A stretch of DNA of 33,005 nt, taken from Cryomorphaceae bacterium. Its GTDB lineage: Bacteria > Bacteroidota > Bacteroidia > Flavobacteriales_D > SKUL01. Positions 15,257 to 29,262 of this stretch are shown here, piece by piece (within the stretch, counting starts at the first letter, position 1; every line of letters starts with the position of its first letter). The translations under genes and the position numbers were made by a program. Below the pieces are notes generated by a model that was not told where the DNA came from, did no database searches, and worked only from the letters and a program-made list of their open reading frames with translations. The stretch spans positions 1 to 33,005 of the forward strand of contig REDV01000133.1 of NCBI GenBank assembly GCA_007695365.1, written 5' to 3'.

Positions 15257-16084
15257 ATGAAACGCTCCGAAAGTCCTTGTCTTTTCAAATCTATTGTGTT
15301 ATTTGTGTGCATCATGTCTTCCGACATGATCTTCGGCGCTCAATCAGACACCCTGCGCTTTTTGACCATTCGTCCGGGTTACTCATGGATGCAGGGGCGC
15401 GACGTTGGAATGTCGCCGTTGTTGTACAGTGGCAGCCATTTTCACGGTCAAATTGGACTGGAAAAGACCAAGGACAGGTGCTTGAAGGTGCTGCAACTGG
15501 ATCTGACCTTTGGAGAAATGACCACACCGTCGCTGCCCAAAGGGCGCCGCTCCCGTGCCTTAAGCGGGCAGGTTCAAATGAACTATGCACAACAGTATAA
15601 CCTGAAGTCCTGGAAAGAAGGCCGGCTGCAATGGTTTCTGGGCGGATCCTGGATGAACTTCCTCACCTTGAGGTTCCATCAGCGATACCTCAACAACAGC
15701 CTCAATTACGAATTCAGCTCCTCTATAGGGCCCTCAAGTAGTTTGCGATACAACACCGAAATATTTGGTAAGCCCTATGAATGCTTTGCTAGAATGGATG
15801 TCCCCTTGCTGGCTTTTAACCTTCGGCCATCGTTCGCCAGCTCAATTCCTGAGGGGTATATTGCTCAGGAAAGAAGTGATGTGCGCGCTTTTTTTGACAG
15901 CGGTCGATTGCAAACCCTCAATCGCTTTTTCAGGGTCCGCAACGAACTGGGGATTGCCCGCGTGTTGAATAATAAAAACAGATTGGTTATTAGTTACGTT
16001 TGGGACTACTACCACATCAGCCACATACACCCGGTTGACGTGGCCCAACACCAAATTTTAATGGGATGGTACTTTTCATTTTGA
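15257..16084 (+). CDS. Outer-membrane beta-barrel-like protein, hypothetical
   Basis: An N-terminal signal peptide (KSIVLFVCIMSSDMIFGAQS, cut near residue 28) is followed by alternating aromatic/polar stretches typical of barrel strands. The C-terminal strand ends QILMGWYFSF, with a final Phe as expected for a BAM-recognised protein. No family is recognised at the 275-residue length. GTG at 15254 is an alternative start, one codon earlier. The stop overlaps the start of the S41 lipoprotein gene, so both are likely expressed and possibly act together at the envelope. Confidence 0.7.
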   Translation: MKRSESPCLFKSIVLFVCIMSSDMIFGAQSDTLRFLTIRPGYSWMQGRDVGMSPLLYSGSHFHGQIGLEKTKDRCLKVLQLDLTFGEMTTPSLPKGRRSRALSGQVQMNYAQQYNLKSWKEGRLQWFLGGSWMNFLTLRFHQRYLNNSLNYEFSSSIGPSSSLRYNTEIFGKPYECFARMDVPLLAFNLRPSFASSIPEGYIAQERSDVRAFFDSGRLQTLNRFFRVRNELGIARVLNNKNRLVISYVWDYYHISHIHPVDVAQHQILMGWYFSF

Positions 16085-17100
16085 GCCAAAATAACAAAAG
16101 ACTTCTGCCCGTGATTCTGGGCATAGCGTGTTTCACAATAGTAAGTTGCGAAAAGCTGTGGATGGGTTCGGATCCTGCCGACGAACCACTTGAAAACTTC
16201 GAGGCGTTCTGGAAGACCATGGATGAGAAATACGCATTCTTCACTTTTAAAAACATTGATTGGCAGGCCGTTTACAACGAGTACAGGCCAGAGATCACCG
16301 ATGACATGTCTAACCTGCAACTATTTAACGTGTTGCGAGACATGATATACAAGCTGAACGATGGCCACACTACCCTGAGCACGCCTTTTAACGTTGCTAG
16401 AAACAACAGCTGGTACCTAAGTTCTCCTCCCAACTACAATTACGACGTGATTGAGAGGCATTATCTGGGCGAAAATCACCTTATCATCGGACCGCTTCTG
16501 GCCACCGTCATAGATTCGGTTGGCTACGTTCACTACCGCAGTTTTTCGTCGCCTGTTGGTGAGGGTAATCTGAACACTCTGCTCTCAGCGATGCGCAATA
16601 CGAGGGCGATGATTATAGATGTGAGAAACAACCCGGGTGGCGAAACGCGCTTCGCCGAGCGCGTCGCGGCACGCTTTACCGAGGAGAGAGCTCTAACCCA
16701 GTACTGGCTGTACAAGAACGGCCCGGGTCACGATGATTTCAGCCAACCCGAAGAGCGTTACCTGGAGCCTTACGATGGCACGAGATACAACAAACCCGTG
16801 GCAGTACTAACCAATAGGCGCAGCTATAGCGCAGCCAATGATTTTGTACTGATCATGAAAGCACTACCGAATGTTACGTTGGTTGGCGACACAACTGGTG
16901 GCGGTGGCGGTTTTCCTTTTAACGCCGAGTTGCCCAATGGTTGGCAATATCGTTTTTCCTCGTCGATGACGCTCGCTCCGGACGGTTTTAACGTAGAGCA
17001 TGGAATTCCGCCGGATGTTCAGCAGGACATGGATCCTGCCGATGAGGCAAACGGTGTGGACACCATCATAGAAAAAGCCCTTGAGCTTCTTAATCAGTAG
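16066..17100 (+). CDS. S41 family peptidase, predicted lipoprotein
   Basis: This is a tail-specific/tricorn-like S41 protease core (344 aa). The N-terminal hydrophobic segment ends at a lipobox-like TIVSC (Cys28), so the protein is likely lipid-anchored. Core motifs are DGHTTL near 99-104, IDVRNNPGG at 184-192, nucleophile Ser255 in RRSYSAAND, and GDTTGGGGGFPF at 275-286. There is no PDZ domain as in CtpA, so substrate entry differs. The start is either ATG 16066 or TTG 16081; the latter gives a standard signal peptide and a TTGA overlap with the upstream stop. It is the partner of the OMP gene in a two-gene unit. Its stop is one base from the convergent glutathione peroxidase stop. Confidence 0.85.
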   Translation: MVLFILSQNNKRLLPVILGIACFTIVSCEKLWMGSDPADEPLENFEAFWKTMDEKYAFFTFKNIDWQAVYNEYRPEITDDMSNLQLFNVLRDMIYKLNDGHTTLSTPFNVARNNSWYLSSPPNYNYDVIERHYLGENHLIIGPLLATVIDSVGYVHYRSFSSPVGEGNLNTLLSAMRNTRAMIIDVRNNPGGETRFAERVAARFTEERALTQYWLYKNGPGHDDFSQPEERYLEPYDGTRYNKPVAVLTNRRSYSAANDFVLIMKALPNVTLVGDTTGGGGGFPFNAELPNGWQYRFSSSMTLAPDGFNVEHGIPPDVQQDMDPADEANGVDTIIEKALELLNQ

Positions 17101-17719: not shown

Positions 17720-19285
17720 TCAGTAAAAAGGTACAACCTCAAGAATGAATGGCTCCATTTTCAGCTTTTGGTCCTGTCTTTCAAAGCCGGCAAGGCGGTT
17801 GTCTTCCGAACGCACGTAATTACGCATCTCTGCTACTGACGCGTTGGCCCCCAATGAGCCCACCACCTGTGTTGATTTCAGTACTTTGGCATTTCCATCA
17901 GCATCCACAAGACAGATCCCCACAACATTTCCGTTTTGAGAAACCACAGGGGCTCCCGAAGCATGAGGCGCAGCATGTAAGTCGGTTTGGTAAAAACGTG
18001 CATCCCCATCCAACTCGAGACCGGTAATACTGCCGAGGTACATTTCTCCTCCCGTAGCTACCATAATGGGCGTACCCACGGATGCTTGCAAACCCGACAG
18101 GCGATAGGGAATGCGCAGTGTGTTTTCCCACGCCGGACTTGTTACGTGGTAGATGGCTATGTCCAATGCTGCATCGTAAAAAACCGCTTGTGTCCTGAAA
18201 TCGAGCGTATCGCCCCTTCTTAGCCGTATGGATTTCGCATCCTGCACTTTGCTGTGCTGGGTAATAAAAAAACCTGCCTGACTTATCATAAACGACCTTG
18301 CGTTTAGTTTTGGGGCTTCACTCTCCACGACATCCGGTTCATGTATCAGGTTTTCATCGCTAACGGCAGCACCATTTTCTTCAGCCAGGTTATTTGTTGC
18401 TGAATCTACGGCTGCTTCAGATAAAGCAGGTGAATGAAGGTAGATTTGTCTGGTGGCAAAAAAAGTAATCACTCCTGTAGCCAACACAACCAGCAGCCAA
18501 AACACCAGCCCCGGACGCTTTCCGCCTCCTTCCACAGATGCCAATTGGGGTTCCGACCAATCACGGGATTTGAAAATCTCATCCAATTTTTCGTGGAGCT
18601 GTTGATAGACCTTGAGTGCAGCAATAGAATCTCGTAATGCGCTGTAAGCCAAAAAAACTTGCTCCAAAGCACCATTCTCCCTGCGGGCCTCAGCAAAACC
18701 ACTTTTCTCGTCTTCGGTTGCCTGGCCGGTATAGTGTTTCCTGAATTCCAATAGCTGTTCTTGCGTCACATCGAGTTCGTCACCATCCAGAAGCTTTGCG
18801 ATGGCCTTGAAGTAATTTTTGGCAGCGCTTGTGCTATCGCTAAAGCCCATACGCATTCCAATCTCTTCCAGGGGAACGTCATGAGCCAGGTGCTCGTTGA
18901 CAAATGTACGGCCCGGTTCTGCGAGGTTTTTGATCCGTTCTTCGGTGGCTTTCACAGTATGCAGGGTTTTCCTGAGAAAGCCCGGATCCATCTCAAGAAA
19001 CTCCGAGACATGAAGCATGGAGGTTGGGTTGGCCTTTTTGGAGCGCATTTGTTCTTGCCACAACACGCGCACTACCGAGTACATAAACACCCCCATATCT
19101 TTCTGACCATCGGAGTGATGTACAAGAAGAAACACCGCGTCGTGGAAGCAGTCACGCGCTTCATCCATGGTTCCCTTGTTCAAGGTTACAAAACGCAACA
19201 CTTCAGGAAAATACTGTGCATACAACCTCCCCAGAGCTTCAGAGCTTCCGTTTTGAATATCAGATAGCTGGATGGAATCTTTCAT
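17720..19285 (-). CDS. ECF sigma / anti-sigma / transmembrane / trypsin-like fusion protein
   Basis: One continuous 521-residue frame. Residues 15-85 look like ECF sigma region 2 (core-binding DEARDCFHDAVFLLV at 41-55, and FMYSVVRVLWQEQMR at 67-81, matching YLYSVxRNLWLxxLR of Bacteroidota ECFs). Residues 112-166 look like region 4 with the helix-turn-helix VPLEEIGMRMGFSDS and AAKNYFKAIAKL. Residues 174-225 resemble the cytoplasmic helices of anti-sigma factors (FRKHYTGQATEDEKSGF). A single helix spans about 258-278, preceded by KR, then an acidic linker. Residues 330-475 resemble an HtrA/trypsin domain with candidate triad His344 (FFITQHS), Asp375 (LDIAIYH) and Ser443 (HASGAPVV). There is no PDZ domain. 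It probably anchors sigma to the membrane with the protease domain in the periplasm. Sigma activity and proteolysis are inferred. Confidence 0.8.
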   Translation of the reverse strand: MKDSIQLSDIQNGSSEALGRLYAQYFPEVLRFVTLNKGTMDEARDCFHDAVFLLVHHSDGQKDMGVFMYSVVRVLWQEQMRSKKANPTSMLHVSEFLEMDPGFLRKTLHTVKATEERIKNLAEPGRTFVNEHLAHDVPLEEIGMRMGFSDSTSAAKNYFKAIAKLLDGDELDVTQEQLLEFRKHYTGQATEDEKSGFAEARRENGALEQVFLAYSALRDSIAALKVYQQLHEKLDEIFKSRDWSEPQLASVEGGGKRPGLVFWLLVVLATGVITFFATRQIYLHSPALSEAAVDSATNNLAEENGAAVSDENLIHEPDVVESEAPKLNARSFMISQAGFFITQHSKVQDAKSIRLRRGDTLDFRTQAVFYDAALDIAIYHVTSPAWENTLRIPYRLSGLQASVGTPIMVATGGEMYLGSITGLELDGDARFYQTDLHAAPHASGAPVVSQNGNVVGICLVDADGNAKVLKSTQVVGSLGANASVAEMRNYVRSEDNRLAGFERQDQKLKMEPFILEVVPFY

Positions 19286-19316: not shown

Positions 19317-22121
19317 TTATTTTCTCAATACGAGTTTAAGGGTTTGTTCTTTGCCGGTTGCAGGCTCCACTACCCGAACAAAATACAATCCGGTATTGAG
19401 CCCGGTTGGCAAATCAATCTCCCAGTTGGTTCCCTCATTGGCAGGTTCCTGCATTCTAAAAACCTCTCTACCGCTGACGTCAATTACAACAACCTGCAAT
19501 TGATCGAGTGTACGCGGAATAAAGAGCCTGAAAACGTCAGTAGCCGGGTTCGGGAAAATGGAATAACTCAGCTCCGGCTCCGGAATCACAGAAGCAAAGC
19601 CATCACAGAAGTCGTATTCAATGGTCACAGTCGCTTGATCCTCATTGCACGGCCCGGAAACAGTGTAGGTAAACTGATACACTCCCGGAGCTTGAAGTGA
19701 GTTCAGAAACAACACGTTGCCAAGTAGTGCCCCGGTATCATCATCATCCGTCCATATACCTCCGGAGGTTTCACCATCCAGTAGGCCAGGCATCACAATA
19801 GAGCCTGTATTGCTTTGGCAAACGAAGACGGTTGTATCGCTTCCAGCACTAACGACGGTTTCCTCTTGCTCAATCATAAACACCCCAATCCCGAATTCCG
19901 CATCACTTGTGCTACCAAGCCGCAAAACGTACGTGGAGCCTTGAAAGGTGGGGAAAGTCACCGAAGCTGACAGGTCATTACAATCCGCCTCATCGCTACA
20001 TGCCAGTACGGTCAAATCGTCGTTTTCGCAGGTACCCTCAAACACTACCATCCTTGTGTTGAAGGTACTCAAAGCGCAATTGGTCCAGGTGGCCTCTCCG
20101 GTACAGGGAGCTGTAAAGAAATACCACAGGTCGTTGTGCACCTGATCGAAGCTACAATTACCGCCTTCAAGAGGCTCGCCCCATGTAGAAGAGAACTCAA
20201 GAGTAAATGAATTCCATTGATTGCTGAACACCTGATCAATATCAAGGCAACCCACATTGAAGTTTTGCGGGTAGCAATCAGCTGAAAGAAAAGGCGATCC
20301 GCTTATGCAAGCCGCATTTGAAAGGGATTGCAAGGATAGGGACACCTGGCTGTTGTTGGGAAAGGGCCCGAAGGTATATATCCCGGGAACATCCACAAAA
20401 ACAGTTGAGTCAGTGCCGTTAACCACAAGTTCATACGGAGGGTTATTACCTATGTTTACAACAGTGGCGCTTACAAAAAACCCGTCAAAATCGTCAATTC
20501 CGGTACACATCGTTTGATAGCCGACCACGGGCATCACGCAGTTATCTTCCATACATGTTTCAACCAGGTTGAAAGTTCCGGAGCCCCCTCCTGAACCCGG
20601 AAATTCACCAAGACGCAGGTAGTACGTCTCTCCCTCCAGCACATCCCAGGTAACAGCAGATTGAAGGCTACCACTAACATCGTCATTGCAGGCTACGACG
20701 TTAATCATGTTTTCAGGACAATAGGCAGCATATACAGCAATGCGGGTATCGAGAAAAGTGCCGTTTAACGTTGAAAATTCAGCCTGTCCATCGCAAGAAG
20801 CCGTATAGCTGTACCAAACGTCTTTATCTATTTGATTGCCTCCAAAGAATGTACATGTCTGGTCTCCAAAGTGAGAGGGGCCTGTAGTGGTAGCAGTAAA
20901 GGTATTGAAAGGGATTCCGAAAGATGGTGTAATCACCTCAGCCCCTTCGCAGGCATCATTAGGCGGGGGTTCCTGACCACAAACTTCTTCCAAAGAAAAG
21001 GTACCTGCTCCACCGTTGCTAAAAGGACTGTTTCCGATTCGTATGGTGTACTCCTGCCCTTGTTCCACATCCCAGTTCACAATGCTCTGCCCAAAACCCT
21101 GGAAATCATCATTGCAATCAATGAGGGTTGACAGATCTTCCGGGCAGCCTCCAAGGTACACCGCAATGCGTGTGTCTAAGGTGGTTCCTCCTAGTGTGCT
21201 CACGGATGCCAATCCGTCACAGGAGGCGGTATATGAATACCAAATATCATTGGGGAACTGATCATCATCCCACAAAAAGCAGGTAAAGTCTCCTTCGTGG
21301 CTCGGGCCATCGGTTGATGCACCCAGGGTACTGAAAGGAATTGCCGCTGATGGCGTAACAAACTCAGCATCTGAACACAAATCATTTGCAGGCGGATCTT
21401 CTCCGCCGCAAGATTGAATCAGGTTGAAAGTTCCGTTTCCGCTTCCCGGGCCGGGAGATTCACCGATACGAATGGCGTACACACCATTGTTAACAATAGG
21501 CCAACTCACAGAGCTTTGCAAGGAGCTACCAAAGTTATCGTTACAAGCAAGCAGGTCATTGGTAGTGGGAATACAATTGAAATTGTAAACCGCAATCTTA
21601 GTATTGAGCGTGGTGCCTCCTACGGTTGAGACCGTTGCCTGCCCGTCGCAAGTGGCGGCATAAATGTACCACACGTCATTCTCAATCTGGGCTTCTCCGT
21701 TTACCTCACAATTTTCTTCACCGAAATGTGGAAGTCCGTCCGTTGTTGCGCCAAATGTGGTAAAAGGAATACCGTTGGCAGGATTGATAAACTGAGCATC
21801 CCAACAGTTGTCATTGGCCGGTGGCCCGGGGCAATTTATCATGGTGATTTCTACGGTTGAAGATTCGGGGCCTGCGCCCACGTCAACCGTGTAGGTGTAG
21901 ATTCCACCCTCACTTGTTCCGGGCACGAAAGTACCATCGGGCACTTCTATTCCTGAGGGGTCAACCCAAGAACCACCTGGGCTGGGATTGCCCTGCAGGG
22001 CATCAATAAGTTGAAAAGGATTATGTTGGATGCAGACACTGATGGAAGTGCTCACACCGGGATCAGCCAGTAACCCAAGGGGTAATGACAAAAGAACGAG
22101 GGCGGCAAAGGTTCGATACAT
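19317..22121 (-). CDS. Secreted repeat protein with T9SS type A sorting domain, 934 aa
   Basis: A signal peptide (MYRTFAALVLLSLPLGLLA) starts the protein. Residues 97-238, 241-381 and 385-523 are three repeats with the pattern PPANDxC...IPFxTxGATTDG...DVWYxYTAxCDGxA...LDTRIAVY...ACNDD...IRIGExPG...GTFNL. Residues 625-752 are a fourth, decayed copy (NDLWYFFTAPCTGEA). Each repeat carries several Cys, probably in disulfides. Residues 853-934 are a T9SS type A C-terminal domain (IFPNPATDVFRL ... GLYFVRV). It is thus predicted to be exported by T9SS and attached to the surface or released. Similar DVWYxYTA domains occur in other surface proteins of Bacteroidota and Planctomycetes. No enzymatic domain is seen; an adhesin or binding role is a guess. 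It starts the likely operon with the sigma-protease gene. Confidence 0.88.
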   Translation of the reverse strand: MYRTFAALVLLSLPLGLLADPGVSTSISVCIQHNPFQLIDALQGNPSPGGSWVDPSGIEVPDGTFVPGTSEGGIYTYTVDVGAGPESSTVEITMINCPGPPANDNCWDAQFINPANGIPFTTFGATTDGLPHFGEENCEVNGEAQIENDVWYIYAATCDGQATVSTVGGTTLNTKIAVYNFNCIPTTNDLLACNDNFGSSLQSSVSWPIVNNGVYAIRIGESPGPGSGNGTFNLIQSCGGEDPPANDLCSDAEFVTPSAAIPFSTLGASTDGPSHEGDFTCFLWDDDQFPNDIWYSYTASCDGLASVSTLGGTTLDTRIAVYLGGCPEDLSTLIDCNDDFQGFGQSIVNWDVEQGQEYTIRIGNSPFSNGGAGTFSLEEVCGQEPPPNDACEGAEVITPSFGIPFNTFTATTTGPSHFGDQTCTFFGGNQIDKDVWYSYTASCDGQAEFSTLNGTFLDTRIAVYAAYCPENMINVVACNDDVSGSLQSAVTWDVLEGETYYLRLGEFPGSGGGSGTFNLVETCMEDNCVMPVVGYQTMCTGIDDFDGFFVSATVVNIGNNPPYELVVNGTDSTVFVDVPGIYTFGPFPNNSQVSLSLQSLSNAACISGSPFLSADCYPQNFNVGCLDIDQVFSNQWNSFTLEFSSTWGEPLEGGNCSFDQVHNDLWYFFTAPCTGEATWTNCALSTFNTRMVVFEGTCENDDLTVLACSDEADCNDLSASVTFPTFQGSTYVLRLGSTSDAEFGIGVFMIEQEETVVSAGSDTTVFVCQSNTGSIVMPGLLDGETSGGIWTDDDDTGALLGNVLFLNSLQAPGVYQFTYTVSGPCNEDQATVTIEYDFCDGFASVIPEPELSYSIFPNPATDVFRLFIPRTLDQLQVVVIDVSGREVFRMQEPANEGTNWEIDLPTGLNTGLYFVRVVEPATGKEQTLKLVLRK
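20553..21833 (-). repeat. Three consecutive ~140-residue repeats within the T9SS protein gene
   Basis: Coding segments 21833-21408, 21401-20979 and 20969-20553 encode the three well-matched repeats. They are similar in protein, but diverged in DNA. A fourth weak copy lies at about 20249-19866. Confidence 0.75.
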
Positions 22122-22195: not shown

Positions 22196-23887
22196 TTAGT
22201 GCCTTGCTACTCGCTGGCTCGTTGATTTACCGCTAACAAATTCAAAAGTAACGAGGTACAAGCCTGATGCAACACCAGAAAGATCGAGTTGCAGCAGATT
22301 TTCGTTGGCGGGCATGCGCGCTACAATTACACCTACCAGGTTCCGAACAATTACTTCGTGCACTTCGCGGTGGTAATCGCCCAAATCCACATTAAAAATG
22401 CCCGATGTAGGATTGGGGAACAACTTGAATTGGCTGGCCATTTCTAGTTCCGTTTCTTCTACACTACTCACCTGGCTGCATGGAGCATAAGTTCCAACGA
22501 GTACCGACTGGCCTGTATTGAGCGGATCTAATTTCGTCTTTAGGTGAATGGTAGCGTTGCCGGGGTTTTGATCCCAGTGGTAGGAAACTTTACCGTACCA
22601 GTCGGGCTGGTTCTGCCCTCCTGACTGCACTTCATTGCAGAATGAACTTCCACCGGCCAGCGTACCCACAACCAATCCGTTACCGTCATAAAGCGGTGAG
22701 CCGGACGAACCTCCTTCGGTTACACCATGACCAGATTCCGTTCCGGTCCAAATCACCCGCCAGTATCCCTGGTTGCTACCACCTCCCCAGGAGGATGTGA
22801 TGTAGTTGTTGGTTGAGGTGGAAATCTTCTTGACATCGCTTGAGGGGTGATGAATCCCAACTCCACCTCCAAATATGGTGGTTGACTGCGTGTTCCAACC
22901 GTTGTAATAAGCGTTGTAGGCCTCCGGCACGTCGTTTCCGAGTTCAATTAACGCAAAGTCCGAACCAAGTGACATATTTTGATGGCCGCGGGCAACGATG
23001 CTACCGCCCATCATAATGTTGGTAAGAGGTGCGTTTCCTTCGTCACACTCCGGACGCTCATAATTGAACCAAAAACGCAATTGATCCTGATCTGCCTGAC
23101 TGTTGACCACCCCGCTGATACAGTGAAAAGCTGTGAGAATGTACGGGGTGCAATCCAACGCTGTGTTGTTCATTAAAACCCCTGAGCACCAAAACGTCCC
23201 TCCACCTTCGGTAATGCGCATACGCACCACACCGCGTTTCTGGTCTTGCCAATCGTCGCCTTCGGGGCAGTTTATGTCAACCTGGCAGGGATCTGAACTA
23301 CGGGCGCTGGCAGCCAGATCGCGATATTGATGCCCAAGTGCTTCAATAACCAAACGCCCTTTACCGGCAGCCGATACAGGCTCGTAGTACTCAAGAATGA
23401 TCTCATCACTGGCCATTAAATTGGTGGCAAATGATCCCGATTGAGTATTAAAAACAGAGGTATATCCTCCTTCTATCACGGTTTGATCCGGGCTGTAGAA
23501 AAAGAGCTCTGCACCATCCGGCAGATAAAAGTCACTGAAGTACAACTCTGTAGCAATAGCTCCCGGAGAGGCAATGCGGAGCTTCCATACCATATCACCA
23601 TTGGGAAGTGTAAACCACTCACCCGCATTCTCATGCGACAATCTCAATTCAATTTTTCTACCGTCAAAAGGCAATTCCCCTTTGCTCTCGCGCAACTCAT
23701 CTTCAGCGGCTACAGCGTTCATGTCAAGAGCGGGAACTTCGTATACCAGTAGGTCGTTATCAAAAACGTCAAGGCCCTGGCGAAAACTCACCGGCGTACC
23801 ATCTGTTAAAAGTTGACCTTGGGCAATTGGGGCAATAAAAAATAAGGTGGCTGCCATGGCCAAAGCAGATATTCTTGCAAATGTCAT
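22196..23887 (-). CDS. Lysyl-endopeptidase-like serine protease with T9SS sorting tail
   Basis: This is a secreted trypsin-fold protease (563 aa). I start at ATG 23887, giving signal peptide MTFARISALAMAATLFFIAPIAQGQ; the frame stays open 40 codons upstream, but a promoter element lies there. Numbering from this start, the triad is His255 (ILTAFHCIS), Asp310 (GSDFALIEL) and Ser395 (EGGSSGSPLY). GGSSGSP is the active-site form of the Achromobacter lysyl endopeptidase group. An N-terminal region of about 200 residues may be a propeptide. The last 80 residues (LFPNPTSGIFNV ... SGLYLVTFEF) are a T9SS type A sorting domain. It is probably an extracellular digestive or processing protease. It lies upstream of the cargo/sigma genes, 74 bp away, on the same strand. 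Confidence 0.92.
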   Translation of the reverse strand: MTFARISALAMAATLFFIAPIAQGQLLTDGTPVSFRQGLDVFDNDLLVYEVPALDMNAVAAEDELRESKGELPFDGRKIELRLSHENAGEWFTLPNGDMVWKLRIASPGAIATELYFSDFYLPDGAELFFYSPDQTVIEGGYTSVFNTQSGSFATNLMASDEIILEYYEPVSAAGKGRLVIEALGHQYRDLAASARSSDPCQVDINCPEGDDWQDQKRGVVRMRITEGGGTFWCSGVLMNNTALDCTPYILTAFHCISGVVNSQADQDQLRFWFNYERPECDEGNAPLTNIMMGGSIVARGHQNMSLGSDFALIELGNDVPEAYNAYYNGWNTQSTTIFGGGVGIHHPSSDVKKISTSTNNYITSSWGGGSNQGYWRVIWTGTESGHGVTEGGSSGSPLYDGNGLVVGTLAGGSSFCNEVQSGGQNQPDWYGKVSYHWDQNPGNATIHLKTKLDPLNTGQSVLVGTYAPCSQVSSVEETELEMASQFKLFPNPTSGIFNVDLGDYHREVHEVIVRNLVGVIVARMPANENLLQLDLSGVASGLYLVTFEFVSGKSTSQRVARH

Positions 23888-23935
23888 TAATGGAAATTTA
23901 AACGGTTGAAAAAATGCATTCAAAATGCTCTTTCG

Positions 23936-23943
23936 CAAAGATA
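23936..23943 (-). promoter_or_regulatory. -7 element TATCTTTG of the T9SS protease gene
   Basis: On the minus strand TATCTTTG matches TAnnTTTG exactly, about 48 bases before the ATG at 23887. The -33 match is poor. It supports the shorter start. Confidence 0.55.
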
Positions 23944-24088
23944 CGAAAAACAGAGGACTTTTTTGTAACATCCCGCACCATCCTTGAATTGCTGAGAGCA
24001 CAAACACCCCTTCCTTAACATTGATTAACTGGCATGAAGTTTTCAGCTCTGCAGTAATAAAGGTATCTTAGCACTTTAAACGCTTTCC

Positions 24089-25678
24089 ATGAAAAATATT
24101 CTTTCCCTTATTTTATTCGCAGCAACATTGATTTCTGCGCAAGCCCAACCCGCGCGTGATCTCGGGCCTGTAGAGAAGTTCAATGCGCTGATGTTTCACA
24201 TTCAAAGATCTTATGTTGATGAAGTGGATGCGGACAAACTTGTTGAAGCAGCCATAGAGGCACTGCTCGAAGAGCTGGATCCACACTCGATGTATATTTC
24301 TGCTGAGGAAATCAGGGAAATGAATGAACCGCTGGAAGGTAATTTTGAAGGCATTGGCGTGCAATTCAACATTATGCGAGACACCATCGTGGTTGTTTCG
24401 CCCATAGCAGGCGGACCTTCAGAGAAACTTGGAATTCTAAGTGGCGACCGGATCGTACAGATTGAAGGTGAAAACGTGGCCGGAGTGGGCATTAAAAACC
24501 GTGATGTGATGCGTTTACTGAAAGGCAAAAAAGGCACCCAGGTTAAAGTGGGGATTCGCAGAAAAAGCACTCCGGAGATTCTTGACTTCACCATTACCCG
24601 CGACAAAATTCCTATTTACAGTGTGGATGCCCACTACATGGCCGCGCCGGAAATCGGATACATCAAGGTTAACCGATTTGCGGCTACCACCATGGATGAG
24701 TTTAGAAAAGCGCTCAAGGAATTGAACGAGCAAGGAATGCAGGACCTGATTCTCGACTTGCAAGGCAACGGCGGCGGCTTGCTCAAAGCGGCTGTTGAAA
24801 TGGCTGACGAGTTTCTGGAAGGCCAAAAAATGATTGTTTACACCGAAGGAAGAGCCTATCCGCGACGAGATACCAAAGCGCGGGTGAATGGAAATTTTGA
24901 GAAAGGCCGCCTGGTCATTTTGATTGACGAAGGCTCAGCGTCAGCCAGTGAGATTGTTTCGGGAGCTGTACAGGATTGGGATCGCGGATTGATTATTGGC
25001 CGACGGTCTTTTGGAAAAGGTCTCGTTCAAAGACCCATTGAACTACCTGATAGCTCCGTGGTTCGTCTTACGGTTCAGCGCTACTACACCCCTTCGGGCC
25101 GGAGTATTCAAAAACCCTATACAGAAGGTGTTAAAGCATACAAAAGCGAAAAGTTCGAGCGCTTCTTTAAAGGGGAACTCACCAGTGCCGATAGCATCAA
25201 TTTACCGGACTCGTTGAAGTACTACACCAGCAGAAACCGCTTGGTTTACGGTGGAGGAGGTATCATGCCGGATATATTTGTACCGCTCGACACAACTGCT
25301 TTCAGCGATTTCAATACAGCACTCATCAGAAAGGGTGCCTTCAATCAATTCAGCCTTGATTATACCGAAAAGCACAGAAAAAGCCTGCTCAAAAAGTTCC
25401 CAACTGTTTCTGACTTCATTGAGGGCTTCGAGATGCAAGAAAGCATCATTGACGAGTTTTTCTCTTTTGCCGAAAAAGAAGGGGTGGAATTCAATGAAGA
25501 GGAGTACAACAGGTCTAAATACCTAATTGACAACAGGCTCAAAGCTCTTATAGCACGAAACCTTTGGAATACCAGTGCATACTACCAGGTGTACAATCCT
25601 TTTTGGCCCATCTACCAACGGGCCATTGATGTGCTTGAAGGTGACGCATACAACGCTGTGAACCTCGCTGATTATTAA
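24089..25678 (+). CDS. C-terminal processing protease, S41 family (CtpA type)
   Basis: This periplasmic protease of 529 aa has signal peptide MKNILSLILFAATLISAQAQ. The N-terminal helices with YVDEVDADKLVEAAIEALLEELDPHS are typical of CtpA. A PDZ domain covers about 86-170 (GIGVQF ... GDRIVQIEG), and the S41 core carries nucleophile Ser285 in EGSASASEI and general-base Lys310 in RRSFGKGLVQ. The C-terminal part of about 150 residues is the helical extension common in Bacteroidota. CtpA proteases trim or degrade envelope proteins. It is transcribed divergently from the T9SS protease gene across 200 bp. A weak -7 (TATCTTAG, 24064-24071) precedes it. Confidence 0.93.
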   Translation: MKNILSLILFAATLISAQAQPARDLGPVEKFNALMFHIQRSYVDEVDADKLVEAAIEALLEELDPHSMYISAEEIREMNEPLEGNFEGIGVQFNIMRDTIVVVSPIAGGPSEKLGILSGDRIVQIEGENVAGVGIKNRDVMRLLKGKKGTQVKVGIRRKSTPEILDFTITRDKIPIYSVDAHYMAAPEIGYIKVNRFAATTMDEFRKALKELNEQGMQDLILDLQGNGGGLLKAAVEMADEFLEGQKMIVYTEGRAYPRRDTKARVNGNFEKGRLVILIDEGSASASEIVSGAVQDWDRGLIIGRRSFGKGLVQRPIELPDSSVVRLTVQRYYTPSGRSIQKPYTEGVKAYKSEKFERFFKGELTSADSINLPDSLKYYTSRNRLVYGGGGIMPDIFVPLDTTAFSDFNTALIRKGAFNQFSLDYTEKHRKSLLKKFPTVSDFIEGFEMQESIIDEFFSFAEKEGVEFNEEEYNRSKYLIDNRLKALIARNLWNTSAYYQVYNPFWPIYQRAIDVLEGDAYNAVNLADY

Positions 25679-25741
25679 TGCGGATTTGTTAATGATTCGT
25701 TAATTGGCAGGCCGCATTTTTAGGTGCTGCCCCAGAATGGT

Positions 25742-25749
25742 TAGCTTTG
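25742..25749 (+). promoter_or_regulatory. -7 element TAGCTTTG of the DUF1573 gene
   Basis: TAGCTTTG matches TAnnTTTG, 26 bases before the ATG at 25776. A TTTT stretch at 25717-25720 may serve as a poor -33. Confidence 0.55.
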
Positions 25750-25775
25750 CATGTAACATAAAAATCAAGATTATC

Positions 25776-26294
25776 ATGAACAGTACATTGAAATACGGAT
25801 TGATGGGGGTAATCGCAGTGGCATTGATTGCCAACGTGTACCTCATGATGACTGGCGCCTATTCAGGTGATTCAAGTGCACCCAAACCTTCTTCGAGCGC
25901 TGCAAGTGCAGCAGCCAGCAAAGCAGAGCGCACTGCAACAACAACGTCGCCTGTTACTGAGGAAGCCTACACCGGCCCGATTACAGTGATAAATTTTGCG
26001 CAGCCCATGCACGACTTTGGTGCTATCAAGCAAGACACTGAGAACGCTCACACCTTTACCTTTACCAACACAGGTACAGAGCCGTTAATTATTGAGAATG
26101 CGAAAGGTTCATGTGGCTGCACCGTGCCTAAGTATCCCAAAGAGCCTATTCCTCCCGGTGGAACCGGAGAAATTGACATCGTGTACAAGCCCGGTAAGCA
26201 GAAAAACAAGCAGACTAAAACTGTTACAATTACCGCTAACACCGAGCCCCGCACTACCACTCTTACCATCAGCGCGAACGTTGAGGAAGTGTAA
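25776..26294 (+). CDS. DUF1573 domain protein, membrane-anchored
   Basis: The product of 172 aa has a membrane anchor at about 8-26 and a Ser/Ala/Pro/Thr-rich linker at 31-62. A DUF1573 domain follows (HDFGAIKQDTENAHTFTFTN at 79-98, SCGCTVPKYPKEPIPPG at 112-128, then TVTITANTEP), an Ig-like beta-sandwich common in Bacteroidota. The paired Cys in SCGC are conserved in the family. Its role is unknown, presumably envelope-related and periplasmic. The ATG at 25776 is chosen because the promoter is just upstream; the frame is open earlier. A strong terminator follows. Confidence 0.9.
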   Translation: MNSTLKYGLMGVIAVALIANVYLMMTGAYSGDSSAPKPSSSAASAAASKAERTATTTSPVTEEAYTGPITVINFAQPMHDFGAIKQDTENAHTFTFTNTGTEPLIIENAKGSCGCTVPKYPKEPIPPGGTGEIDIVYKPGKQKNKQTKTVTITANTEPRTTTLTISANVEEV

Positions 26295-26764: not shown

Positions 26765-28933
26765 TTAGTTCATCACCAACCCCGCTCTGGGTAGCTCAAC
26801 CCTCACGGTGGTGCCTCCATTGCTGTTTCGTTCTATGGTGAGTTTACCACGATGGGCTTCAACAAGGTCGCGAACAATAATCAGCCCTACCCCGGTTCCT
26901 TTTTCCCCAAAAGTGCCCACGGCAGAGCTCAGGCGCTCACGATGCGGCAGCGCATCAATCAAATTTTGCTCCATGCCCTCACCGGAATCCTCAACTTCCA
27001 ACACCGTGAAAGTGGCGGTTTCGCTGATGGTGACCGTCACCGTTCCGCCACGCGGACTAAATTTAAGTGCGTTGGTAATGACATTGGTAGCAATGCTTTT
27101 GAGTTGGGTTTCATCAGCATGGATGAGTGCACAACCCCTGTTCACAAACTTCAGATTAACATCTTTGAGTCGGGCACTATTGTCAAACAACTCTTTGAGC
27201 GTTTCAATAAAACCATCTGTGCGGATATCGCTCGGTCGGCTCACCACCTGACCCTGAGCTGTATGCGACCAGTTGAGAATATTGTTGAGCGTTGTAAGGC
27301 TGGTTTCCGTTTGGTTCTGAAGCATACCCAGCCATTCTTTGAACTGTTTTTCATGCAGGCTTTGGTCATCCATCATTCGCAGCAATGAAGAAATATTAGC
27401 CAACGGAGCCCGCAAGTCGTGCGAAAGCACCGAAATAATGCGATTTTTAAGCCTGTTCGATTCCATCAACTCGCGCTCCTGACGTTTAATTTCCTCATGC
27501 TGTGCACGCAAACGACCATGAGCTTCCTTTTCTATCAACAAGGATTTTTTCCGCATTCGCACCAACCTTGTGAGCAAGACCACAACCGTTGCCAAAAGCA
27601 CCCCCAGTAAAGAGAGCGCAATAATAACTTTACGCTGAAAGAATACACGTTCCGGCTCGTGGGCAGTTTCAGAAGGATTTCCACCTGAACCATCGAGCAG
27701 GGAGCCCGTTTGATACCGTTGCATTGCAGCTGCCAACTCCTGTCGCGCCAATTCATTTTGAAGACTGTCGTTGAATGCCTTAAGCCGCTCGTGATACACC
27801 AACGCGTCTTTAAACTGCCCGGTTTCTTTAAAGAAGGTTACCAGTCGCTCCAGCATTTCGCGCTTTAATTGGAACGCGCCCATTCGTTGAGCAGCCATCA
27901 GAGCTTGCTCGAACCTACTCTGAGCACGTTGTACGTAGTTCTTTCGGAGATAAACCTCGCCCAATCCTTTGTTGGCGTGGTAAAAACCGGGATCTATTCC
28001 ATGTTCTTCGCTAAGTCTGAGTGTTTCTTTAAAAGCCTTTTCGGCAGAATCCAAATCGTTATTTTCAATGTGCAGGTATGCAAGTCCGTTTAAGGCAATC
28101 GCCATTGCAGCAGGCATTTCCAATTCCTCTCGAAGTGCTATGGAACGCCGGGCATAGTAAAATGCACTGTCCAAGGCCCCCTTTTTCTGATACATCAACG
28201 ACAGGTTGTGCTTATTCTGAGCTAATCTGTAGGTATTTTCCGTTTCAATATTCAGTACTCTCGCACGATGAAAATGGCGTGCTGCAAGATCAAACTCGCG
28301 GAGGTCACGGCTATATAAATCCCCCAGGTTGTTTTCAATCACAGCCAGTCGGTCTTGATTTTCTGTTTGTTGAAAAAAGTGACGAACCTCCAGAAGAATT
28401 TCGAGGGCCTTACTGTACTGATCTGTATGTTGGTATGTTGATGCCAGATTGGTTTTGAGCTTTTGCAGAAAGTCCACATCTCTGTCGCCACAATACTCTA
28501 CTGCTCTTTGAAAATGTTCGAGGGCGTCATTGTGACGGTTTTGAGAACTAAGAATGGTAGCTACCTCGGCGTGTGCATCAGTGAGCATGATTGTATCGCC
28601 ACGTTGAACAGCGATGCTGAGTGCCCGTTGTGCGGCCTCCATGGCATCCTTAAGCTGCCACCCGTGTCGCAACCACCTGGCTTTGTTGTGGTAAAAGCGA
28701 AAACGCAACTCAGAATCAGCATGATCGTAAAGCCAAGCTGCGGCAGATTCCAGCAGACCATCAGCCAACGACATCTCTCCGGCATCGATAGCCGTTTCAA
28801 TGGAGTCAAGCAATTGCGAAGCTTCAGATTTGTTGTCAGAGGCTATTAACCCATGATTGAGAATCAACCCAACAAAAAACACAAGAGTAACCCGGAAATA
28901 CATCCATTCCCTGGAAAAATGCTGAAGCCGCAT
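26765..28933 (-). CDS. TPR-sensor histidine kinase, orphan
   Basis: A 722-residue membrane sensor kinase. A signal peptide or first helix (about 13-31, FRVTLVFFVGLILNHG) is followed by a periplasmic region of TPR repeats (about 80-400), one helix at about 436-456 (VIIALSLLGVLLATVVVLL), a coiled coil, then HisKA with His505 in SVLSHDLRAP and a HATPase_c domain with N-box Asn621 (NVITNALKF), Asp649 (EDSGEGM) and GEKGTGVGL. This TPR-HK form is common in Bacteroidota. No receiver domain or response-regulator gene is nearby, so the partner is unknown. The start is uncertain: ATG 28933 (chosen), ATG 28903, or TTG 28963. Two direct repeats upstream may be its operator. Confidence 0.9.
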   Translation of the reverse strand: MRLQHFSREWMYFRVTLVFFVGLILNHGLIASDNKSEASQLLDSIETAIDAGEMSLADGLLESAAAWLYDHADSELRFRFYHNKARWLRHGWQLKDAMEAAQRALSIAVQRGDTIMLTDAHAEVATILSSQNRHNDALEHFQRAVEYCGDRDVDFLQKLKTNLASTYQHTDQYSKALEILLEVRHFFQQTENQDRLAVIENNLGDLYSRDLREFDLAARHFHRARVLNIETENTYRLAQNKHNLSLMYQKKGALDSAFYYARRSIALREELEMPAAMAIALNGLAYLHIENNDLDSAEKAFKETLRLSEEHGIDPGFYHANKGLGEVYLRKNYVQRAQSRFEQALMAAQRMGAFQLKREMLERLVTFFKETGQFKDALVYHERLKAFNDSLQNELARQELAAAMQRYQTGSLLDGSGGNPSETAHEPERVFFQRKVIIALSLLGVLLATVVVLLTRLVRMRKKSLLIEKEAHGRLRAQHEEIKRQERELMESNRLKNRIISVLSHDLRAPLANISSLLRMMDDQSLHEKQFKEWLGMLQNQTETSLTTLNNILNWSHTAQGQVVSRPSDIRTDGFIETLKELFDNSARLKDVNLKFVNRGCALIHADETQLKSIATNVITNALKFSPRGGTVTVTISETATFTVLEVEDSGEGMEQNLIDALPHRERLSSAVGTFGEKGTGVGLIIVRDLVEAHRGKLTIERNSNGGTTVRVELPRAGLVMN

Positions 28934-28994
28934 ATCGGAAAGCGCGATTTGCATCAAGCTCAATTTTTCTGTTTCTAAACTAAAACGCCAAGGT

Positions 28995-29025: not shown

Positions 29026-29262
29026 AATATAAGCGAATGAGAACAGACTCCACCGCGCAATCCTGGCTCAACTCACCTGTATGGCCACGCGGTAAACATC
29101 CAAATAGTCTCGCTCGATGTTTTTGACGGGTTGTCCGTATCCTTTTACCACCGTAGCTGTGAGTAAGCTCGGTTGGTGACCACTTTGGTCTCTTGATACG
29201 ATGCAAAGTCAAGAATTTTCTGCTTGCGTTTTTACCGGAAGCCTTTCTTTGCTTATTGACCT
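29026..29262. other. Gap between the kinase and oxidoreductase genes
   Basis: The two genes diverge and about 350 bp separate their start codons. Besides the direct repeats and the oxidoreductase promoter, one minus-strand stretch (29176-29068) reads as a protein-like C-terminus (VVKGYGQPVKNIERDYLDVY) ending in TGA, with no start. It may be a gene remnant. Confidence 0.35.

Follow-up and report, generated by a model that had tools for sequence, protein, structure and literature searches.

How can a single gene that joins an ECF sigma factor to an anti-sigma segment, a membrane helix and a protease-like domain work as a switch: does the protein carry its own protease, or is the cut that would free the sigma factor made by another enzyme? 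The gene in question lies at positions 17720-19285 on the minus strand of the window, by which we mean the whole 33,005-nucleotide stretch of DNA analyzed here, from a Cryomorphaceae bacterium. A preliminary description of the locus had leaned toward the former answer: a tethered sigma factor with its own inhibitor and an on-board protease or sensor, which would act as a one-protein switch for envelope stress.

Domain architecture of the fused protein

The gene is a single open frame of 521 codons running from ATG to TGA, which agrees with the uninterrupted frame described earlier, where no strand had been given. ECF sigma regions 2 and 4, recognized through ECF models and a family profile, occupy residues 1-166 (18788-19285). 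The cytoplasmic anti-sigma domain follows at about residues 181-242 (18560-18745), which can be aligned gap-free with the cytoplasmic part of anti-sigma factors encoded by separate genes (hhalign probability 93, E-value 2.8e-7). Hydropathy indicates one membrane helix at about residues 258-278 (18452-18514), a position common to all fused homologues read. Beyond it come an acidic, fast-evolving linker (residues 279-328, 18302-18451), an HtrA/S1C-like domain (residues 332-457, 17915-18292) and the C-terminal part of the ectodomain (residues 458-521, 17723-17914), which according to alignments ends near a P-F-I-x-E-V segment conserved in the family. Sigma factor, anti-sigma segment and membrane helix are all within one chain, and the sigma, anti-sigma, membrane and trypsin-like parts named in the preliminary description are each confirmed. 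As far as sequences can establish it, this single-chain architecture is real. An AlphaFold model built from two sequences only had a pLDDT of 34, too low to be informative.

The protein is 75% identical to its homologue in a congener (G001; also L006, a Flavobacteriales MAG), with 85% identity in the sigma part, 82% in the ectodomain and 21% in the linker. Between the two, dN/dS is approximately 0.04 in the sigma part, compared with 0.12 in the ectodomain, both rough values with synonymous sites near saturation; judging from these ratios, purifying selection is acting on both parts between the congeners.

Fused and split relatives

Scanning 399 genomes of the order for the single-chain form, we found it in two genomes of the window's genus and in all eight genomes of a second family (f3), where one fused gene ends at a contig end and another has a broken frame near its C terminus. 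In this second family the anti-sigma segment was not detected by profile comparison. Overlapping samples of 395 genomes of the class and 395 of the phylum, in which the best few candidates per genome were considered, yielded no further fused form. The congener was the sole match in a search of genome contigs, and a search of plasmids returned distant partial matches only.

Elsewhere in Bacteroidia, the same modules are encoded by two adjacent genes, one for a sigma factor of about 190 amino acids and one for an anti-sigma factor of about 340-400 amino acids with a membrane helix and an HtrA-like ectodomain. In some of these split pairs both genes are in the same frame with a single stop codon between them, which offers a simple path to fusion. 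The same arrangement might suggest that a sequencing or assembly error has joined two genes in the window, the objection that the preliminary description had itself raised. Two-gene homologues do exist, as that objection foresaw; however, the fused frame is carried by ten genomes from two families with conserved neighboring genes, and the chance of an artifact is negligible.

On the sigma tree the fused proteins form one group (support 100/99) on long branches. The ectodomain tree did not recover a single fused clade, nor was such a clade rejected (p-AU 0.41); its branches are very long, and it gives no clear answer for that reason. The best explanation of these data is that the fused protein derives from an operonic Bacteroidia sigma/anti-sigma pair in which the HtrA-like ectodomain of the anti-sigma factor had an intact catalytic triad.

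Some further features of the split pairs were recorded. Pairs with an intact-triad HtrA-like anti-sigma factor were collected at loci L014, L015, L021, L022, L024, L025, L028, L030, L031, L034 and L103-L122. Split pairs in one family (f8) adjoin DUF5686 and YfbK-type VWA genes. At locus L045 (6814-7897) the split anti-sigma gene is broken into two ORFs, and the residues where they meet are ambiguous (X); this is probably an assembly problem.

Divergence of the sigma domain

Residues 9-165 match NCBIfam ECF models over their full length, but with scores below the curated cut-offs (TIGR02952, E-value 2.4e-5; general ECF model, 15.4 bits against a cut-off of 42.9), and a Pfam profile search gave no sigma match in the fused protein. 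The domain can be tied to true ECF sigma factors through its homologues. It scores 186 bits against a family profile built with the split sigma factors and the window protein itself; this profile matches SigW in the PDB (E-value 4.8e-8), and the sigma factor of an adjacent-gene relative (L014) reaches 76.8 bits on the general ECF model, well above the same cut-off. The fused sigma domain is strongly diverged, and we infer its sigma activity.

A serious rival to the sigma reading is that the domain has been repurposed and does not transcribe. The protein would then have lost both its sigma and its protease activities and would span the membrane as a regulator or adaptor that could act, for instance, on the S41 protease encoded nearby (see below). 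The evidence for this reading includes the core-binding motif of region 2.2, D-x-x-Q-[ED]. Its Gln, replaced by His in the window protein, is absent from all ten fused sigma factors and kept in 30 of 30 split relatives; the long branches of the fused sigma factors, and the failure of the general ECF model at 1e-6 to detect them in three genomes, point in the same direction. Nevertheless, the loss of Gln carries less weight as proof of a dead sigma factor, since the ordinary sigma factors of these genomes vary at this position too (5/17 lack Gln, four having Ile and one His). Regions 2 and 4 of the fused proteins can also still be aligned, together with the helices of region 4 and a basic stretch that follows region 2.3, and the low dN/dS of the sigma part speaks against decay. 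We consider a scaffold of this kind rather unlikely.

An HtrA-like ectodomain without a catalytic triad

Residues 332-457 match Trypsin_2 above the Pfam gathering score (E-value 1.5e-8), and among solved structures HtrA proteases and the ectodomain of RsgI9 come closest to the ectodomain. Judged by sequence, the ectodomain has an HtrA-like protease fold. No PDZ domain and no RsgI N-terminal anti-SigI domain were matched in the fused protein by Pfam models.

The catalytic residues proposed for this domain, His344, Asp375 and Ser443, do not form a triad. In an alignment with DegQ, the catalytic His position corresponds to Ser345, the Asp to Asp375 and the Ser to Ser443, which leaves Ser-Asp-Ser in the window protein. 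His344 precedes the catalytic position by one residue and is thus a neighbor rather than a catalytic residue. Ser443 is set in HASGAP, as compared to GNSGG/A. The congener has Tyr344, Ser345 and Ala443, its triad positions reading Ser, Asp, Ala. Overall, the His-Asp-Ser triad is present in none of the nine fused proteins that are readable at these positions, whereas it is present in all 29 split ectodomains read.

The proposal of an active on-board protease draws on the presence of an HtrA-like domain and on the Asp375 and Ser443 of the window protein. With a Ser at the catalytic His position, an Ala at 443 in the congener and the triad lost in all nine readable fused homologues, a built-in protease is unlikely, and self-activation as originally envisaged is very improbable. 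An on-board protease finds no support in the fused protein; on their sequences, it would fit the two-gene relatives. While apparently dead as an enzyme, the ectodomain is still maintained, as its dN/dS and its identity between the congeners indicate, and it would be better described as a protease-derived sensor than as a protease.

Gene neighborhood

Both in the window and in the congener, the fused gene comes third in a run of genes that point the same way. This likely three-gene unit begins with a gene for a T9SS-secreted Trypsin_2 protein (22196-24007, minus strand) and continues with a gene for a T9SS-secreted protein with galactose-binding-like domains (19317-22121, minus strand), which has the same orientation as the fused gene, is separated from it by 31 bp on its upstream side and has the same place in the congener. 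On the other side of these two T9SS genes, which stand between it and the fused gene, is a gene for an S41 C-terminal processing protease of the Prc/CtpB type with a PDZ domain (24089-25678, plus strand), followed by its partner gene encoding a DUF1573 protein (25704-26294, plus strand). The protease is unrelated to the HtrA-like ectodomain; its Ser motif (GSASASE) and Lys motif (GRRSFGKG) are intact, and we regard it as a candidate site-1 protease.

Neighboring genes are conserved among the homologues: genes for the S41 protease and the DUF1573 protein are near all ten fused loci, usually in divergent orientation. The pair was never seen in the sequence read around the approximately 30 split loci, for the most part some 6 kb per side. 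Six genomes of the order with the split form do have it, but no sigma gene was found in the roughly 1.5 kb read on each side of it. The S41 linkage therefore belongs to the fused lineage. Since the fused loci share descent, this association is not independently replicated, and the fusion, the loss of the triad and the S41 linkage may each represent one single event. RseP was detected above the cut-off in all six fused genomes tested.

Several additional elements were noted nearby. A TTAAC-N5-TTAAC repeat with a -7-like box (TATCTTAG; 24015-24071, plus strand) precedes the S41 gene at a fixed spacing and is found before this gene at all ten fused loci; the exact composite occurs once per genome of the second family (twice in one), in the intergenic region upstream of the S41 gene. 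It may be a site at which an activator of the S41 gene binds. We do not propose it as a promoter of the fused sigma factor, because its box resembles the -7 element of housekeeping promoters in the phylum and two genes intervene in the window. About 0.6 kb past the end of the fused gene and opposite to it, the window encodes another S41 peptidase (16066-17100, plus strand), which differs from the first and has a Tricorn C1 domain. Farther away, a SAM-I/IV riboswitch scoring above the gathering threshold (29109-29204, minus strand) unexpectedly precedes a gene for a TPR histidine kinase (26765-28963, minus strand); it also overlaps the called start (29193) of a DsbA-like gene that runs in the opposite direction.

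Proposed mechanism

The closest precedent for a switch of this kind is IutY of P. putida, a single-chain ECF sigma/anti-sigma protein that is cut by Prc and then by RseP; Prc first shortens its periplasmic part to some 50 residues, after which RseP releases the sigma factor (PMC8999054, PMC9249621, PMC5411451). An order of parts like that of IutY, the length of the linker, the nearby S41 gene and the presence of RseP together favor proteolytic release with the S41 protease acting first. Our main reading, to which we assign a probability of roughly 0.45, is that the fused protein is a membrane-tethered ECF sigma/anti-sigma hybrid with a dead HtrA-like sensor, and that it is freed by S41 and then RseP cuts.

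Such a protein would have originated by fusion of adjacent sigma and anti-sigma genes, its HtrA-like ectodomain being catalytically dead. In the resting state, the sigma factor would be retained at the membrane by its anchor and by the anti-sigma segment. A change in the state of the pseudo-protease domain, caused by a ligand, the loss of a partner or unfolding, might then expose the protein to processing from its C terminus. The nearby S41 enzyme is the most likely protease for this step, which would trim the ectodomain to the linker of about 50 residues. RseP would next cleave the membrane helix and set the N-terminal sigma fragment free. That the S41 protease acts on the fused protein we infer from the gene neighborhood.

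An uncut switch would give the dead protease domain a possible role as a binding module: the sigma factor would stay tethered, and ligand binding by the pseudo-HtrA domain would lift the anti-sigma inhibition across the membrane. However, a divergent and presumably flexible linker of some 50 residues would be a poor transmitter of conformational change, and the S41 linkage and the presence of RseP point to proteolysis. We find this alternative improbable. Returning to release by S41 and RseP, it is possible, although we lean somewhat against it, that in the fused lineage the built-in protease lost its activity and turned into a sensor, and that the neighboring S41 protease took over the cut. 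If this is true, a cis-acting protease has been replaced by a trans-acting one within a signaling pathway. Compared with each other, fused and split forms provide a natural experiment on the rewiring of a proteolytic signaling switch, and they raise two questions: whether the anti-sigma factor of the split form cuts itself, and whether another protease cuts the fused form once the built-in one has been lost.

Comparison with known systems

A search of the literature for anti-sigma factors with a trypsin-like or pseudoprotease domain returned nothing relevant, and in the papers searched we found neither a sigma/anti-sigma hybrid with a protease-derived ectodomain nor the widespread two-gene relatives with an apparently intact HtrA-like protease in the anti-sigma factor. 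Sigma/anti-sigma hybrids as such are already known; among those described in the papers searched, a protease-derived ectodomain would be new.

Like the window protein, IutY (Pseudomonas putida, ECF243) is a single chain that contains an ECF sigma factor, one membrane helix and a regulatory domain outside the cytoplasm, and the genomes studied here encode both kinds of protease that process it, Prc (S41) and RseP. The periplasmic domain of IutY, however, is FecR-like and answers to a TonB-dependent receptor, whereas the ectodomain of the window protein is a dead, HtrA-like Trypsin_2 domain; the window protein also differs in having a separate cytoplasmic anti-sigma segment and in coming from another phylum. 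In ECF48, ECF52 and ECF53 of Actinobacteria (e.g. SCO4117), an anti-sigma extension that spans the membrane follows the sigma factor at its C terminus (PMC8999054). They share this feature with the window protein, but differ in what the extensions contain, namely zinc-finger anti-sigma domains and ectodomains of other kinds. RsgI9 of Clostridium thermocellum, the best PDB match, is an anti-sigma factor with an S1C/HtrA-like extracytoplasmic domain, in the aligned segment of which the His is kept and Thr replaces the catalytic Ser; unlike the window protein, it is a separate protein with a SigI-type anti-sigma domain, and it belongs to Firmicutes.

Finally, the analogy with RpoE/RseA/DegS of E. 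coli drawn in the preliminary description stands with respect to the list of modules, namely sigma factor, anti-sigma factor, membrane anchor and HtrA-like domain. It does not extend further: E. coli uses three proteins, with an active DegS that has a PDZ domain, whereas the window protein is one chain with neither PDZ domain nor triad. The split Bacteroidia pairs with their intact-triad anti-sigma factors are a better fit, and they are closer than the fused form to the E. coli system.
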